The notes beneath the pieces were generated by a model. It had not been told where the DNA came from, did not search any database, and was given only the letters and a program-made list of their open reading frames with translations. From the NCBI GenBank assembly GCA_029558535.1, contig JAKQEK010000362.1, positions 1 to 64,000 on the forward strand: DNA of 64,000 nucleotides. Direction: 5' to 3'. This document shows positions 46,177-51,887 of this stretch, one piece after another. How positions within the stretch are numbered: position 1 is the stretch's first letter; every line of letters starts with the position of its first letter. Position numbers and translations under genes: made by a program. This DNA is from Bacteroidota bacterium. GTDB lineage: Bacteria; Bacteroidota; Bacteroidia; Bacteroidales; ML635J-15.

Positions 46177-48078
46177 ATGAGAAAAAAGATTACACTAATG
46201 GACAGATTCAGGTATCGCTTCGACAACATAATGAGTCGTGGCACGGGAGCTATGATTGGATTTCTTGGAATTTTATCTTTGCTTATTATTGTTAGCGCGG
46301 GACTTATTTTTTGGGGTTTAGCAATCACACCTGATGAAACGGAACCTATGAGTTTTGCAGAAGGTTTATGGCAAGGATTAATGCGTACAATGGATCCCGG
46401 AACTGTAGCAGGAGATTCGGGATGGACTTTCAGATTCATTGCTATTTTAATTACTCTCGGTGGAATATTTATTTTGTCAACTTTAATTGGTATCTTGAGT
46501 TCAGGCATTGAAACGAAATTGGAACAACTACGAAAAGGAAAAAGTTTTGTAATAGAAAAAGATCATACGTTAATACTAGGATGGAGCACAAAAGTTTACA
46601 CTATCATTTCTGAGCTAATAGTTGCAGGAGAAAACCAAAAATCTCCACGTCTTGTAATTCTGTCCGAAAAAGATAAAGTAGAGATGGAAGATGAAATTAG
46701 AGAAAGAATCCCCTGCATGAAAAACATGAAAGTTATTTGCAGAACCGGTTCTCCATCAGATTTAACCAGCTTAGCGATTGTCAATCCACATCAAGCCAAA
46801 TCTATAATAATTTTATCGCCCGAAGAAGGAGATCCTGATGCCCAAGCAATAAAGACAATTTTAGCAATTACTAATAATCCTGACAGAAGAAAGAACCCTT
46901 ATCATATTATAGCAGAAATTAAAAATTTCAAAAACATGGAGGTGGCTAAAATGGTAGGCAAAGATGAAGTAGAGCTAATTCTTGCTGACGATATTTTTGC
47001 CCGAATAATGGTACAAACAAGTCGCCAAAGTGGTTTGAGCATTGTTTATCAGGAATTGATGGATTTTGACGGTGACGAAATTTATTTTAATGAAGAGCCT
47101 AAACTGGTTGGAAAAACATTTGCAGAATCTTTGTTTGCTTACGATAAATCAGCTGTAATGGGGATTCAGTATAAAAATGGACATTGTCAGGTTAATCCGC
47201 CAATGGATTATATTTTACAAGAAGGTGATAAAATTATTGCTATTACCGAAGATGATGACACTCTAGTCATTTCTGAAAAAAAGAATTCCTTAATTTCAGA
47301 AGAAAACATAGTAAATAAAGTGGAGTCTAAAAAAGGACCTGAAAGAACACTGATTCTAGGCTGGAATAACCGTGGACCCATACTTATTAGAGAATTAGAC
47401 CAATATGTTGAAAAAGGATCATATATAAAAATAGTTTCGGATTATGATTTAGATATTGATGAAATTGAAACCTTGAATTCTACATTAACAAACATAAGTT
47501 TTGATTTTGTTAAAGCCGAAACTACATCAAAAGAAATAATTGACAATCTTGATGTTACATCATTCGACAATGTTCAGGTTTTATGCTATAACGATAGGTT
47601 ACCTCAACAAGAAGCAGATGCAATAACATTAATTATTTTACTTCATTTAAGAAGAATATCTGCTGAAAAAAATACTGAAATCAAAATTGTAAGCGAAATG
47701 CTTGATATAAGAAACAGAGATTTAGCTTCGGTAACAAAAGTAAATGATTTCATTGTAAGTGATAAAATAATTAGTTTAATGATGAGCCAGATTTCGGAGA
47801 ATAAGAATCTGATGAGAGTATTCGAAGATCTATTAAGATCTGAAGGCAGTGAAATATATCTGAAACCTGCAGAAAATTATGTGAAGCTTAATTCTGAAAT
47901 TGATTTCTATACTATCTTGGAATCAGCAAAAAGAAAAAAGGAAATCGCAATCGGTTATAAAATTGCAGAATTTGTTGGAGACAACAGTCAATCTTTTGGA
48001 GTGGTTGTTAATCCTGACAAAACTAAAATGCTAAACTTTAAACCAGATGATAAAATTATTGTTTTAGCCGAAGATTAA
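46177..48078 (+). CDS. CASTOR/POLLUX/SYM8-like ion channel
   Basis: A 633-residue channel subunit. Two membrane helices (about 25-50 and 85-112) flank a pore segment with TMDPGTVAGDSGW, the filter pattern of the CASTOR/POLLUX family. Two large cytosolic RCK-like, NAD-binding domains follow: the first opens HTLILGWSTKVYTIISEL, the second RTLILGWNNRGPILIREL. In plants, such channels are nuclear cation channels, and bacterial members gate monovalent or divalent cations by ligand. Bacterial roles are little known. It is followed after 4 bases by a small PH-like protein. Confidence 0.86.
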   Translation: MRKKITLMDRFRYRFDNIMSRGTGAMIGFLGILSLLIIVSAGLIFWGLAITPDETEPMSFAEGLWQGLMRTMDPGTVAGDSGWTFRFIAILITLGGIFILSTLIGILSSGIETKLEQLRKGKSFVIEKDHTLILGWSTKVYTIISELIVAGENQKSPRLVILSEKDKVEMEDEIRERIPCMKNMKVICRTGSPSDLTSLAIVNPHQAKSIIILSPEEGDPDAQAIKTILAITNNPDRRKNPYHIIAEIKNFKNMEVAKMVGKDEVELILADDIFARIMVQTSRQSGLSIVYQELMDFDGDEIYFNEEPKLVGKTFAESLFAYDKSAVMGIQYKNGHCQVNPPMDYILQEGDKIIAITEDDDTLVISEKKNSLISEENIVNKVESKKGPERTLILGWNNRGPILIRELDQYVEKGSYIKIVSDYDLDIDEIETLNSTLTNISFDFVKAETTSKEIIDNLDVTSFDNVQVLCYNDRLPQQEADAITLIILLHLRRISAEKNTEIKIVSEMLDIRNRDLASVTKVNDFIVSDKIISLMMSQISENKNLMRVFEDLLRSEGSEIYLKPAENYVKLNSEIDFYTILESAKRKKEIAIGYKIAEFVGDNSQSFGVVVNPDKTKMLNFKPDDKIIVLAED

Positions 48079-48082
48079 TAAT

Positions 48083-48433
48083 ATGACAGATATAGAAAAA
48101 GTACTTAAACAAGATAATGTAACTTATCTTAAATCGAAACGAATAAGTAAAAATGCTACTTTGTATATTACTGATGAAGAATTGGTTATTGAATCTGAAG
48201 CTACTATGATTAAAGGTATGAATCTCTTAAATTCGGCTTTAAAATCTAGTTTTTTAAAAACAAATAAGAAAATAGTTATTCCAATCAACAGTATAAAATC
48301 TGTAAAATACAATCCTCAAGAAAACACAATCGAATTTGTAGATTTAAAAAATAAGGATTTCTGCATAGAATTTAAAAAAACAGAAGACTGGATTGCAATG
48401 ATAAACAGCAAAATAAGGATAATAAACAATTAA
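48083..48433 (+). CDS. Small PH-like protein, partner of the ion channel
   Basis: A 116-residue soluble protein that I do not recognise. The pattern of about seven beta-strands (ATLYITDEELVIESEA, NKKIVIPINSIKSVKY, NTIEFVDLKNKDFCIEF) followed by a C-terminal helix (TEDWIAMINSKIRII) resembles a PH or GRAM-like domain, which binds lipids or proteins. It starts 4 bases after the channel gene, so the two are co-translated. Confidence 0.6.
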   Translation: MTDIEKVLKQDNVTYLKSKRISKNATLYITDEELVIESEATMIKGMNLLNSALKSSFLKTNKKIVIPINSIKSVKYNPQENTIEFVDLKNKDFCIEFKKTEDWIAMINSKIRIINN

Positions 48434-48486: not shown

Positions 48487-49887
48487 ATGGAAATTCAATT
48501 CATTGGAGCGGCTCACGAAGTTACCGGGAGCAAACATTTAATAACTACCGAATCGGGCAAAAAAATCTTGCTTGATTGTGGCATGTTTCAAGGAAAAGGT
48601 CAGGAAACTGACGAAATGAATAGAAATTTGGGTTTTGAACCCAGAGAAATTGATCATATAATTTTGTCACATGCACATATTGACCACTCAGGATTAATTC
48701 CCTATTTATTTACATTAGGATTTGAAGGCTCAGTTATTTGTACAGATGCTACACGAAATTTATGTTCTTTGATGCTACCCGATTCAGGCTTTATACAAGA
48801 ACATGATAATAAGTGGTACAACAAAAAACTTGCAAAAAAGGGGCTCCCTCCTATTAAGCCAATATATAATAGCGAAGATGCCGTAAAAGCAATGAAACTT
48901 TTTATTGGAGTATCTATTGACAGGAAATTTAAAATTGATGATAATATTACTGTAAAATTCACCAGCAGTGGTCACATGTTGGGCGGGGCTGTTGTAAATT
49001 TGAGTATCCGCGAAAACGGAAGAATAAAAAACATTGCTTATACCGGCGATATCGGAAGACCATATAATAGGATAATAAAACCACCTGCCCCATTTCCACA
49101 GGCTGACATATTAATAACCGAGAGTACTTATGGAGACAGAATTCACGATCCTAATCATGAATCAGAATATGCTTTGCTCGATATTGTCAAAGACACTTGC
49201 GTAAAAAAGGGCGGTAAACTTATAATTCCATCTTTTAGCGTCGGACGTACCCAAGAAATTGTTTATATATTAAACAATTGGTTTAATCAAGGCATACTTC
49301 CAAAAATTGATATTTATGTTGATAGCCCATTATCAGTAAATGTTACAGAAGTATTTAAACTTCATCCCGAATGTTATAATAAAGATGTTCTTGAAGTTAT
49401 GAAGACTGACTCTGACCCTTTTGGTTTTGAGCAATTACATTATATTAAAAACATAAATGAGTCGAAAAAACTCAACAAGACAAAAAAACCTTGTGTTATT
49501 ATTTCAGCATCAGGAATGGCAGAAGCCGGTCGTGTAAAGCACCATATTGCAAATAGTATTGACGATCCAAGAAACACAATTTTAATTGTTGGATACTGCG
49601 CCCCAACAACTCTGGGTGCCAGATTGCAACAAGGTGATGCAAGGATTTCTATCTTTGGACAAGAGCATTACATTAAAGCTGATATTAAAAGATTAGAATC
49701 ATTCAGTGGACACGGCGATTATACCGAAATGGCTGATTTTCTGGAATGTCAGGATAAAGAACTTTTACAAGGAATTTATCTGGTACATGGGGATCTTTCC
49801 AGTGCTGAACAATATAGAAAATATCTCTTGCAAAAAGGATTTAAAAACATCGAAATACCTGCTCCCTTAGAGCGAATCACAATATAA
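48487..49887 (+). CDS. Metallo-beta-lactamase/beta-CASP RNA nuclease (CPSF-like)
   Basis: A 466-residue RNA nuclease of the CPSF73/YSH1 group. The zinc-site motifs are SHAHIDHSG (about residue 57), SGHMLGG, TGDIG, and C-terminal HGDY and VHGDLS. The beta-CASP domain (about 205-380) includes FSVGRTQEIVYILN and SASGMAEAGRVKHH. These enzymes process or degrade RNA as endo- or exonucleases. The role in this organism is inferred. It stands between the channel pair and the ATP-grasp pair with its own spacing. Confidence 0.9.
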   Translation: MEIQFIGAAHEVTGSKHLITTESGKKILLDCGMFQGKGQETDEMNRNLGFEPREIDHIILSHAHIDHSGLIPYLFTLGFEGSVICTDATRNLCSLMLPDSGFIQEHDNKWYNKKLAKKGLPPIKPIYNSEDAVKAMKLFIGVSIDRKFKIDDNITVKFTSSGHMLGGAVVNLSIRENGRIKNIAYTGDIGRPYNRIIKPPAPFPQADILITESTYGDRIHDPNHESEYALLDIVKDTCVKKGGKLIIPSFSVGRTQEIVYILNNWFNQGILPKIDIYVDSPLSVNVTEVFKLHPECYNKDVLEVMKTDSDPFGFEQLHYIKNINESKKLNKTKKPCVIISASGMAEAGRVKHHIANSIDDPRNTILIVGYCAPTTLGARLQQGDARISIFGQEHYIKADIKRLESFSGHGDYTEMADFLECQDKELLQGIYLVHGDLSSAEQYRKYLLQKGFKNIEIPAPLERITI

Positions 49888-49963: not shown

Positions 49964-51433
49964 ATGCGTAAGGTTTTAATTTTGCTTGACACCATAAACG
50001 AGTGGAAACCGTTTTATGAAACAAAAAGTGTCCTTACCGTTTCTGAATATTTAAAACATCCATATTTTGGCAATGAACTGAACTTGGTAATCAATCTAAG
50101 CAATAATTTTTCATATAATTCGGAAGGTTATTATTGCTCGTTACTTGCTCAGGCTAGAGGACATAAAGTGATCCCCGGTGTTGAAGTTTTAAATCGTTTA
50201 GAATCTGGCACAGGTGTAAGAATGGACAAGACCCTGCAAAAAATTTGTTATCAGTGGATACAAAAGAACAATATAACTACACCTAATTGGTCAATTAATA
50301 TTTATTTCGGCACATGCAAAGAAAAAGGCTTGGAAAAAATTGCCCGTTATATTTTTGAAAACTACCCAAGTCCTATGCTAAAAGTGTGTTTTAATACTAA
50401 CTACCGCAATCAACTTGAGTCAATTTCTTCACTATCCTTATCAGAACTAAATGATGAAGAGCAAAATTGTTTTGCAGAAGCTCTTGATAATTTCAATAAA
50501 AAAGTTTGGAGGATACCTAAATCTCCGAAATCATCAAGGTATAGTCTCGGCATTTTCCACAATCCCACGGAAGAATTTCCACCCAGCGACAAAAAAGCTT
50601 TAGGCAAATTTATGGATATCTCTAAAAAGATGAACATTCACACCGAGCTTATTACAGAAGATGACATAACTCGTCTGATGGAATTTGACGCTTTATTTAT
50701 TAGAGCTACAACATCTCTCAACCATATAACATTTCACTTGTCTCAAAAGGCAAAACTTGCCGACATGGTTGTAGTTGATGATCCTTTGTCAATAATTAGG
50801 TGTACCAATAAAGTTTTTTTGGCGGAATTGCTCTTAAGAGAAAAAATTCCTGCTCCGAGATACAGATTGATTTTTAAGTCAAATATCAACACTTTTGACG
50901 AGATATGTCAATATTTAGGAAATCCGTTCGTATTGAAAATTCCTGACGGATCTTTTTCTCATGGAATTAAAAAAATAAATAATCAGACCGAGTTAGATAC
51001 TACTATGTCTGATTTATTTGAAAAATCAGATATACTACTTGCACAAGAATATATACCGACAGATTTCGACTGGCGTATAGGAATTCTTAACGGAGAACCA
51101 CTATTTGCATGTAAGTATTTCATGGCAAAAGGTCATTGGCAAATATATCGTCATTCGGATAATGGTAAATCCAGCTGTGGTAATTTCGAAACTGTACCGA
51201 TATATCAAGTCCCTAAAAATGTTTTAAAAACGGCAATTAAAGCGACATCATACATAGGAAAAGGACTGTATGGTGTAGATATTAAATTGATTAACAATAA
51301 AGCATACGTGATTGAAATCAATGATAATCCAAACATAGATTACGGAGTTGAGGATGCCGTACTAGGTGACGAACTTTATTACAGAATTCTGAGTTTTTTC
51401 CTTAGAGAACTCGAACTCAAACATATAAAGTAA
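49964..51433 (+). CDS. RimK-like ATP-grasp ligase with RLAN N-terminal domain
   Basis: A 489-residue protein. Residues 1-260 are an N-terminal domain of the RLAN type (RimK-like ATP-grasp N-terminal; VLILLDTINEWKPFYETKSV, KWRIPKSPKSSRYSLGI-like region). Residues about 280-485 form the ATP-grasp: LLREKIPAPRYRLIF, PFVLKIPDGSFSHGIKKI, LLAQEYIPTDFDWRIGIL, and the metal-binding end VIEINDNPNI. ATP-grasp ligases join a carboxylate to an amine, as in RimK, which adds glutamate to ribosomal protein S6. The substrate is unknown. The GNAT gene starts 1 base after its stop. No target peptide was seen. Confidence 0.85.
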   Translation: MRKVLILLDTINEWKPFYETKSVLTVSEYLKHPYFGNELNLVINLSNNFSYNSEGYYCSLLAQARGHKVIPGVEVLNRLESGTGVRMDKTLQKICYQWIQKNNITTPNWSINIYFGTCKEKGLEKIARYIFENYPSPMLKVCFNTNYRNQLESISSLSLSELNDEEQNCFAEALDNFNKKVWRIPKSPKSSRYSLGIFHNPTEEFPPSDKKALGKFMDISKKMNIHTELITEDDITRLMEFDALFIRATTSLNHITFHLSQKAKLADMVVVDDPLSIIRCTNKVFLAELLLREKIPAPRYRLIFKSNINTFDEICQYLGNPFVLKIPDGSFSHGIKKINNQTELDTTMSDLFEKSDILLAQEYIPTDFDWRIGILNGEPLFACKYFMAKGHWQIYRHSDNGKSSCGNFETVPIYQVPKNVLKTAIKATSYIGKGLYGVDIKLINNKAYVIEINDNPNIDYGVEDAVLGDELYYRILSFFLRELELKHIK

Positions 51434-51434
51434 T

Positions 51435-51887
51435 ATGATTAGCCTAAAATCAGCAGAAAAAAAAGATATTAGAGAGATCCTCGAAATAGAAAACTCGAGT
51501 TTTTCTTCCGACAGGTTTTCAGAGTCACAGTTTATTTATTTGCTTTTTAAAGCTAAAGCAGAGTTTAAAGTAATTAAAATAAATGGTAGTGTAAGAGCTT
51601 ACCTTATTTTATTGTTTCGCAACAATTGTAAAGGTTTAAGAATATATTCAATAGCTGTACACACACAAGCAAGAGGATTAGGTTTAGCTTCAAAACTTTT
51701 AGAATTTACAGATAATTATGCCAATAAAAATAAATATACTCACATACATTTAGAAGTAAGGGCAGATAATGATTCGGCAATAAATCTATACCAAAAATCA
51801 GGCTTTAAGATTTCAGGCAAAAAAGATACATTTTACAAGGATGGTTCAGATGCAATTATAATGATAAAAAAGACCTCATCTACATAA
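51435..51887 (+). CDS. GNAT N-acyltransferase coupled to the ATP-grasp gene
   Basis: A 150-residue GNAT. The acetyl-CoA-binding motif A is seen at about residues 78-100 (IAVHTQARGLGLASKLL), and motif B at about 115-140 (NDSAINLYQKSGFKISGKK). It resembles RimI-type protein or amino-acid acetyltransferases. The start is 1 base after the ATP-grasp stop, so the two probably act in one pathway, for example modifying the same peptide or metabolite. The last 8 bases overlap the convergent argS gene. Confidence 0.82.
   Translation: MISLKSAEKKDIREILEIENSSFSSDRFSESQFIYLLFKAKAEFKVIKINGSVRAYLILLFRNNCKGLRIYSIAVHTQARGLGLASKLLEFTDNYANKNKYTHIHLEVRADNDSAINLYQKSGFKISGKKDTFYKDGSDAIIMIKKTSST

Follow-up and report, generated by a model that had tools for sequence, protein, structure and literature searches.

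Iyer et al. reportedly defined the RLAN domain in 2009, predicted RLAN/ATP-grasp systems and noted their association with GNATs, and the existence of the Pfam family PF14401 and its name confirm that RLAN has already been described as a domain, although that name was given by position only. According to a passage in PMC10318531 that refers to Iyer et al. 2009, fusions of DUF3335 to GNAT domains are frequent, and a passage in PMC4431377, citing the same work, states that operons joining ATP-grasp proteins with GNATs or with COOH-NH2 ligases were noted earlier; there the authors propose, for other ATP-grasp families, that ligation may be acyl-capped by the associated GNAT. An ATP-grasp protein is also described in a phase-variable surface cluster, with no link to the RLAN family found in the portion of that paper concerned (PMC12118408). 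Among systems of known chemistry, Ngg (TIGR03103, of the NAGGN osmolyte pathway) is described in an excerpt of PMC8070244 as N-acetylating one glutamine and joining it to a second.

Here we describe a gene pair found in a 64,000-nucleotide stretch of a Bacteroidota contig (JAKQEK010000362.1, assembly GCA_029558535.1), the whole of which is called the window below. Its ligase belongs to the same family as those of the RLAN/ATP-grasp amidoligase systems (PF14401), but the clade to which it belongs differs from them in having a GNAT alone, with no C39-like peptidase, GCS2 or FGase linked to it. The pair resembles Ngg in bringing a GNAT and an ATP-grasp enzyme together, for N-acetylation and peptide bond formation in Ngg (same excerpt of PMC8070244) and putatively here, and the fused order of Ngg, GNAT then ligase, recurs in an RLAN relative (locus L096). 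Unlike Ngg, the window ligase has an RLAN half and no match to TIGR03103 at E 0.01; the GNAT alone scores 31.5 bits against that model (cut-off 569), and no asparagine-synthase-like match was found among the nearest neighbours scanned. Full-text literature searches returned, among the matches listed, no experimental study of the RLAN-ligase family. The proposal of an earlier, sequence-only reading that this is an under-described pathway is thus upheld as regards experiments, but is weakened by the earlier notice of DUF3335-GNAT fusions and ATP-grasp/GNAT operons. As far as these searches go, what is new is that GNAT and GCS2 exclude each other and have been exchanged on the ligase tree, that the GNAT separates from RimI although its score passes the RimI cut-off, and that RLAN yields an ATP-grasp-like model.

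Results

The ligase gene (49964..51433, + strand; ATG at 49964, stop codon taa at 51431-51433) encodes 489 aa, in which an RLAN domain at residues 27-173 (50042..50482, + strand, Pfam bounds; PF14401, 136.6 bits, cut-off 25) precedes a RimK-type ATP-grasp domain at residues 282-459 (50807..51340, + strand; PF08443, 40.2 bits, cut-off 21), as in members of the RLAN/ATP-grasp family, each domain scoring over its Pfam cut-off. At the junction (51431..51437, + strand), the stop codon is followed by a single base and then by the ATG, at 51435, of a gene for a 150-aa GNAT N-acyltransferase (51435..51887, + strand; Acetyltransf_1, 56.6 bits, cut-off 20.7), which we regard as a dedicated partner of the RLAN ligase and which scores as RimI but falls in a separate clade. 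Both the position of the two ORFs, one base apart, and their assignment to RLAN, RimK-type ATP-grasp and GNAT families agree with what the sequence-only reading had reported. The spacing suggests that the two genes may be translationally coupled. Upstream, on the same strand and 76 bases off, lies a gene for an MBL/beta-CASP protein, and downstream, on the opposite strand, an arginyl-tRNA synthetase gene.

The linkage of the two genes is conserved: in a Bacteroidota clade that includes the window and is composed mostly of Bacteroidales by record title, the ligase is followed directly by a GNAT in 26 of the 28 loci (25 of 28 when loci are grouped by BLAST), which answers in the affirmative the question raised by the sequence-only reading. 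Of the two loci without an adjoining GNAT, one (L040) lies near a contig end, and the other (L066) has a gene of a different family in the next position. Of the 25 spacings outside the window, 23 fall between -44 and +36 bases, so that the short junction is shared by most relatives in the clade; the exceptions are L039, with 307 bases, and L059, where the mechanically called ORF start lies far upstream. Every other neighbour family (≥80 aa) occurs in at most 3 of the 28 loci. Because the two genes are kept together while their surroundings change, they very probably form a functional unit. RLAN has a patchy distribution, being found in 11 of 149 genomes of the window's order and missing from one genome of the same genus, as expected for an accessory pathway.

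That no obvious substrate peptide lies beside the pair had been noted from the sequence, and the clade shows the same: among 236 intergenic ORFs (20-90 aa, within ~1.5 kb), no family recurs in more than 3 of the 28 loci. A graspetide-type RiPP with a nearby precursor was rejected on this result, which speaks against a dedicated ribosomal precursor gene in the vicinity but has no bearing on a protein substrate whose gene lies elsewhere.

To the window we added 99 loci, giving 100 ligases, with MAG contigs, which may be chimeric or broken, among the sources. Named genomes contributed 79 of these loci, which come from the 80 of 144 relatives most similar to the window ligase. Of 296 genomes drawn evenly across the phylum, 35 have RLAN; 20 of the 35 were taken with long flanks, and 30 loci were later classed at ~3.4 kb. 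Neighbour-group models, with Pfam checks of examples, revealed four arrangements. In the first, which is that of the window and is also seen in Desulfobulbaceae and some Gammaproteobacteria, the ligase is accompanied by a separate GNAT; in the second, by a GNAT fused to a DUF3335 C39-like domain; in the third, GNAT and ligase are one fused protein with the GNAT at its N-terminal end; and in the fourth, the ligase stands with a C39-like gene and GCS2, often with FGase as well. The 100 ligases comprise 33 with GNAT alone, 19 with GNAT-DUF3335, 5 fused, 37 with GCS2, 6 with neither and none with both; the GNAT model was first built from 32 ORFs, and a 29-ORF model that omits the three ORFs from L064, L071 and L087 changed no class. 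In the phylum draw, all 35 RLAN ligases have exactly one partner, GNAT or GCS2, either nearby or fused: the 30 loci of ~3.4 kb divide into 23 with GCS2 and 7 with fused GNAT (both, 0; none, 0), and the other five are the window, the fused loci L132, L133 and L135, and L134, a GNAT-DUF3335 locus with a weak RLAN hit. Because 10 of the 19 GNAT-DUF3335 genes are encoded on the opposite strand, the linkage is not simply a product of shared operon structure.

Six ligases lack both partners in the flanking sequence retrieved: L040, L066 and four loci of the Porticoccus group (L078, L079, L080 and L083). Separately, an RLAN ligase (L151; NZ_CP133752.1, 3908-5497) lies close to pagP and to genes for amino-acid transporters on a Pseudomonas aeruginosa plasmid of 180 kb; in this record, the one inspected of 19 plasmid records, no GNAT is annotated within 4 kb.

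A C39-like gene is present in 34, and FGase in 28, of the 37 GCS2 loci, some of which are cut by contig ends. The absence of a peptidase beside the pair, claimed from the sequence, therefore describes the window's clade, since a linked C39-like peptidase is likewise absent from the 32 other GNAT-alone loci, but it does not extend to many relatives, which have a C39-like domain, either next to the ligase or as part of a GNAT fusion. Neither GCS2 nor a C39-like gene lies beside the window pair. DUF3335, GCS2 and FGase also have no match elsewhere in the window's own genome (88% complete), so unlinked partners of these kinds were set aside; seven C39_2 matches were found there, all on other contigs. 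The window version may thus need only two enzymes.

On a careful ligase tree of 56 of the 100 rows, pruned of long branches and near copies (L132, L133, L134, L040, L066 and three of the four Porticoccus rows among them), the window type forms one clade (100/99), and the GCS2 ligases together with three GNAT-fused ligases form another (100/100), within which the fused ligases are nested among the GCS2 ligases (97/90). A quick tree of all 100 rows agrees, and the bootstrap trees inspected all require two changes of the GCS2 label. This nesting shows that partners were exchanged: either GCS2 was lost and GNAT gained, or GCS2 was gained twice, and on both accounts one partner replaced the other. 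In the fused loci L096, L135 and L136, no C39-like, GCS2 or FGase gene lies in the fetched flanks, and the minimal content of GNAT plus RLAN ligase is therefore found in separate lineages. GNAT and GCS2 would then play equivalent parts, in that each turns an amino group into an amide, either ahead of the RLAN step or following it.

The ligase should be active, to judge from its sequence, because K283, K325, D439, E451 and N453, which we take to be the catalytic positions of RimK/ATP-grasp enzymes, do not vary among the 53 ligases aligned. Its full-length model (pLDDT 85.1, pTM 0.65) resembles D-Ala ligases, RimK with S6 (5zk6) and ArgX with LysW (3vpb), mostly over ~300 columns, so that fold matches as well as Pfam identify the ATP-grasp domain. 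It shares this fold and the catalytic residues with RimK, LysX and ArgX, but it has an extra N-terminal half and scores far under the equivalog cut-offs of that group, as it does under those of the MptN, glutathione synthetase and D-Ala ligase models. A phage origin was dismissed when the ligase had no match in 50,697 phage records.

In the GNAT, E107 and Y119 are invariant in 22 of 22 aligned sequences; E107 aligns with the Glu of the RimI LEVR motif and Y119 with the Tyr after it, both of which are presumably catalytic in RimI. Among proteins of known structure its relatives are Ard1 (4pv6), RimI (9mto) and further N-terminal acetyltransferases, Naa50 among them, and the acceptor is for this reason likely to be an alpha-amino group.

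Modelled alone, the RLAN half (residues 1-189; pLDDT 88.1, pTM 0.84) matches whole ArgX, LysX and RimK, with a Foldseek E of 3.1e-5 for 3vpb_A and 4 matches at E ≤0.001; all 50 matches listed are, judging by their titles, proteins of the ATP-grasp fold. VIA-align superposes residues 2-184 of the model on residues 1-282 of 3vpc_C (Z 11.1, 169 residues, rmsd 3.8), and, since that chain has 275 residues, about 100 of them are left without a counterpart. RLAN could on these models be a decayed ATP-grasp copy that has lost the nucleotide-binding middle, the order of helices and strands being what suggests which part is missing. Comparison of sequence profiles, on the other hand, gives no evidence that RLAN is such a copy: RLAN scored 17.6 against the ATP-grasp half with clean cuts, where 30 column shuffles reached a maximum of 21.2. 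The idea of a dead copy accordingly stays a structural lead.

Discussion

The identity of the two genes, their linkage, their fusion in relatives, the mutual exclusion of GNAT and GCS2, the exchange of these partners on the ligase tree and the distinctness of the GNAT from RimI are direct observations. Where the sequence-only reading had the pair building or capping a conjugate, linkage, fusion and partner exchange make a functional pair very probable, but the chemistry of the product is a matter of deduction. The reading we favour, and hold tentatively, is that the pair may well constitute a minimal two-enzyme, Ngg-like amide-forming pathway for an N-acylated, amide-linked amino-acid compound. 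The GNAT would acylate, and most likely acetylate, the alpha-amino group of an amino acid or short peptide, and the RLAN ligase would use ATP to activate a carboxylate as an acyl phosphate and then join it to an amine, yielding the N-acylated, amide-linked compound; the logic would be that of Ngg, run by a different ligase lineage. It is the chemistry of this pathway, the order of its two steps and the small-molecule nature of its substrate that we infer. Sister lineages have a GCS2-type ligase in the place of the GNAT, usually with a C39-like peptidase and often with an FGase-type hydrolase, and there the GCS2-type ligase would be expected to add a gamma-glutamyl group, so that the N-terminal group would be exchangeable while the RLAN step was kept. 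Counting against the pathway reading are the lack of any ligase match to the Ngg model at the E value given above and the ligases that have no such partner nearby, six of the 100 and the one on the Pseudomonas aeruginosa plasmid; moreover, the C39-like domains seen in relatives are no less compatible with a peptide or protein substrate than with a small molecule.

More broadly, one could envision the RLAN ligases as a widespread capped-metabolite pathway in two forms, with either an acyl cap from GNAT or a gamma-glutamyl cap from GCS2, and with the RLAN half as a dead, RimK/ArgX-like tandem copy serving for docking; we consider this combination possible but rather unlikely as a whole. Such a copy would dock the capped substrate or the partner enzyme. 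Whichever is true, the exclusion and exchange of GNAT and GCS2 distinguish the shared step from the variable one and narrow the chemistry that need be assayed. Bacteroides and Parabacteroides are genera common in the human gut. Because named genomes of both carry the pair, an amino-acid-derived compound may be made in gut genera.

Alternatively, the pair could modify a ribosomally made peptide or protein, with the GNAT acting on its N-terminus, the ligase adding amino acids at its C-terminus and, in relatives, the C39-like enzyme trimming it. RimI and RimK both act on ribosomal proteins. In favour of this, the structures related to the GNAT belong to enzymes that acetylate protein N-termini, and those related to the ligase half include RimK with S6 and ArgX with LysW, its carrier protein; a C39-like gene is present in 34 of the 37 GCS2 loci, and the 19 long GNATs contain a C39-like domain. 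Against this, no small-ORF family accompanies the pair in more than 3 of the 28 loci, no peptidase of the C39-like kind is linked to it in the 32 other GNAT-alone loci, and GCS2 enzymes of known function have small molecules as their substrates. We therefore regard a protein substrate as a somewhat unlikely alternative, though the strongest of those considered.

A different role for the GNAT would be protective, in that it would acetylate and so disarm the product of the ligase, or an analogue, rather than take part in biosynthesis. GNATs frequently serve in the detoxification of amines, and the GNAT is less conserved than its partner (33-71% identity to the window protein, as compared to 45-93% for the ligase, in loci present in both alignments). 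A direct fusion of GNAT to RLAN and ATP-grasp, together with exclusive alternation with GCS2, an amide-forming family, favours a biosynthetic step, and a protective role seems improbable.

Could the GNAT simply be RimI, the S18 acetyltransferase, standing beside the ligase by chance? It scores 92.4 bits against the NCBIfam rimI model TIGR01575 (cut-off 86.4) and is the only match over the cut-off in the window's genome, so to this extent the description of it as RimI-like was apt, and a RimI label on such genes is to be expected because they pass the NCBI equivalog cut-off. Across the 149 genomes of the order, however, TIGR01575 is matched over its cut-off in 3, each time beside RLAN, and in none of the 138 genomes without RLAN; the fourth-best match (80.4 bits) is likewise beside RLAN, and the best found elsewhere reaches 67.9 bits. 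In the 23 genomes of the Bacteroidota clade that were reached (L041, L046 and L066 excluded), the linked GNAT is in every case the best match to the RimI model. Seven other genomes with a linked GNAT (Proteobacteria and Desulfobulbaceae) contain a second, unlinked strong match, which scores higher or about equal in six and slightly lower in G323. On a quick tree, drawn without the three non-partner ORFs from L064, L071 and L087, the 57 linked GNATs separate from the 7 unlinked RimI proteins at 100% SH-aLRT, with 53 of the 57 but none of the 7 carrying the motif R-hydrophobic-Y-[STA]-hydrophobic. The window GNAT shares with RimI the GNAT fold and the conserved Glu and Tyr positions, but it belongs to a separate clade with a signature of its own, and we argue from these sequences that it probably lies outside RimI despite its score. 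Identity with RimI is thus very unlikely, and we would argue that the RimI label on GNATs of this type would be wrong and that they are a likely source of mislabelling in the order.

That the ligase is RimK and glutamylates ribosomal protein S6, the identity against which the sequence-only reading had set its own, is the least credible proposal of all, for in spite of a RimK Pfam domain over its cut-off and a RimK-like fold the ligase scores 58.2 bits against TIGR00768 (cut-off 143.4) and 28.1 against PRK10446 (cut-off 331), carries the extra RLAN half and has different partners.

Our preferred reading, a two-enzyme amide-forming pathway, concerns the pair itself; three genes upstream of it deserve mention in their own right. 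The MBL/beta-CASP protein (48487-49887, + strand) scores 392 bits against the type VII CRISPR Cas14 model NF045584 (cut-off 800) and 301 bits against aCPSF1 (cut-off 580), and to judge by these scores is a relative that falls below both cut-offs. Before it lies a 116-aa ORF (48083-48433, + strand), the sole match of which is weak, GRAM-like and below the cut-off. Three ORFs before the pair, at 46177-48078 (+ strand), is a gene for a bacterial Castor/Pollux-type ion channel with RCK/TrkA domains, which scores 124 bits against PF06241.
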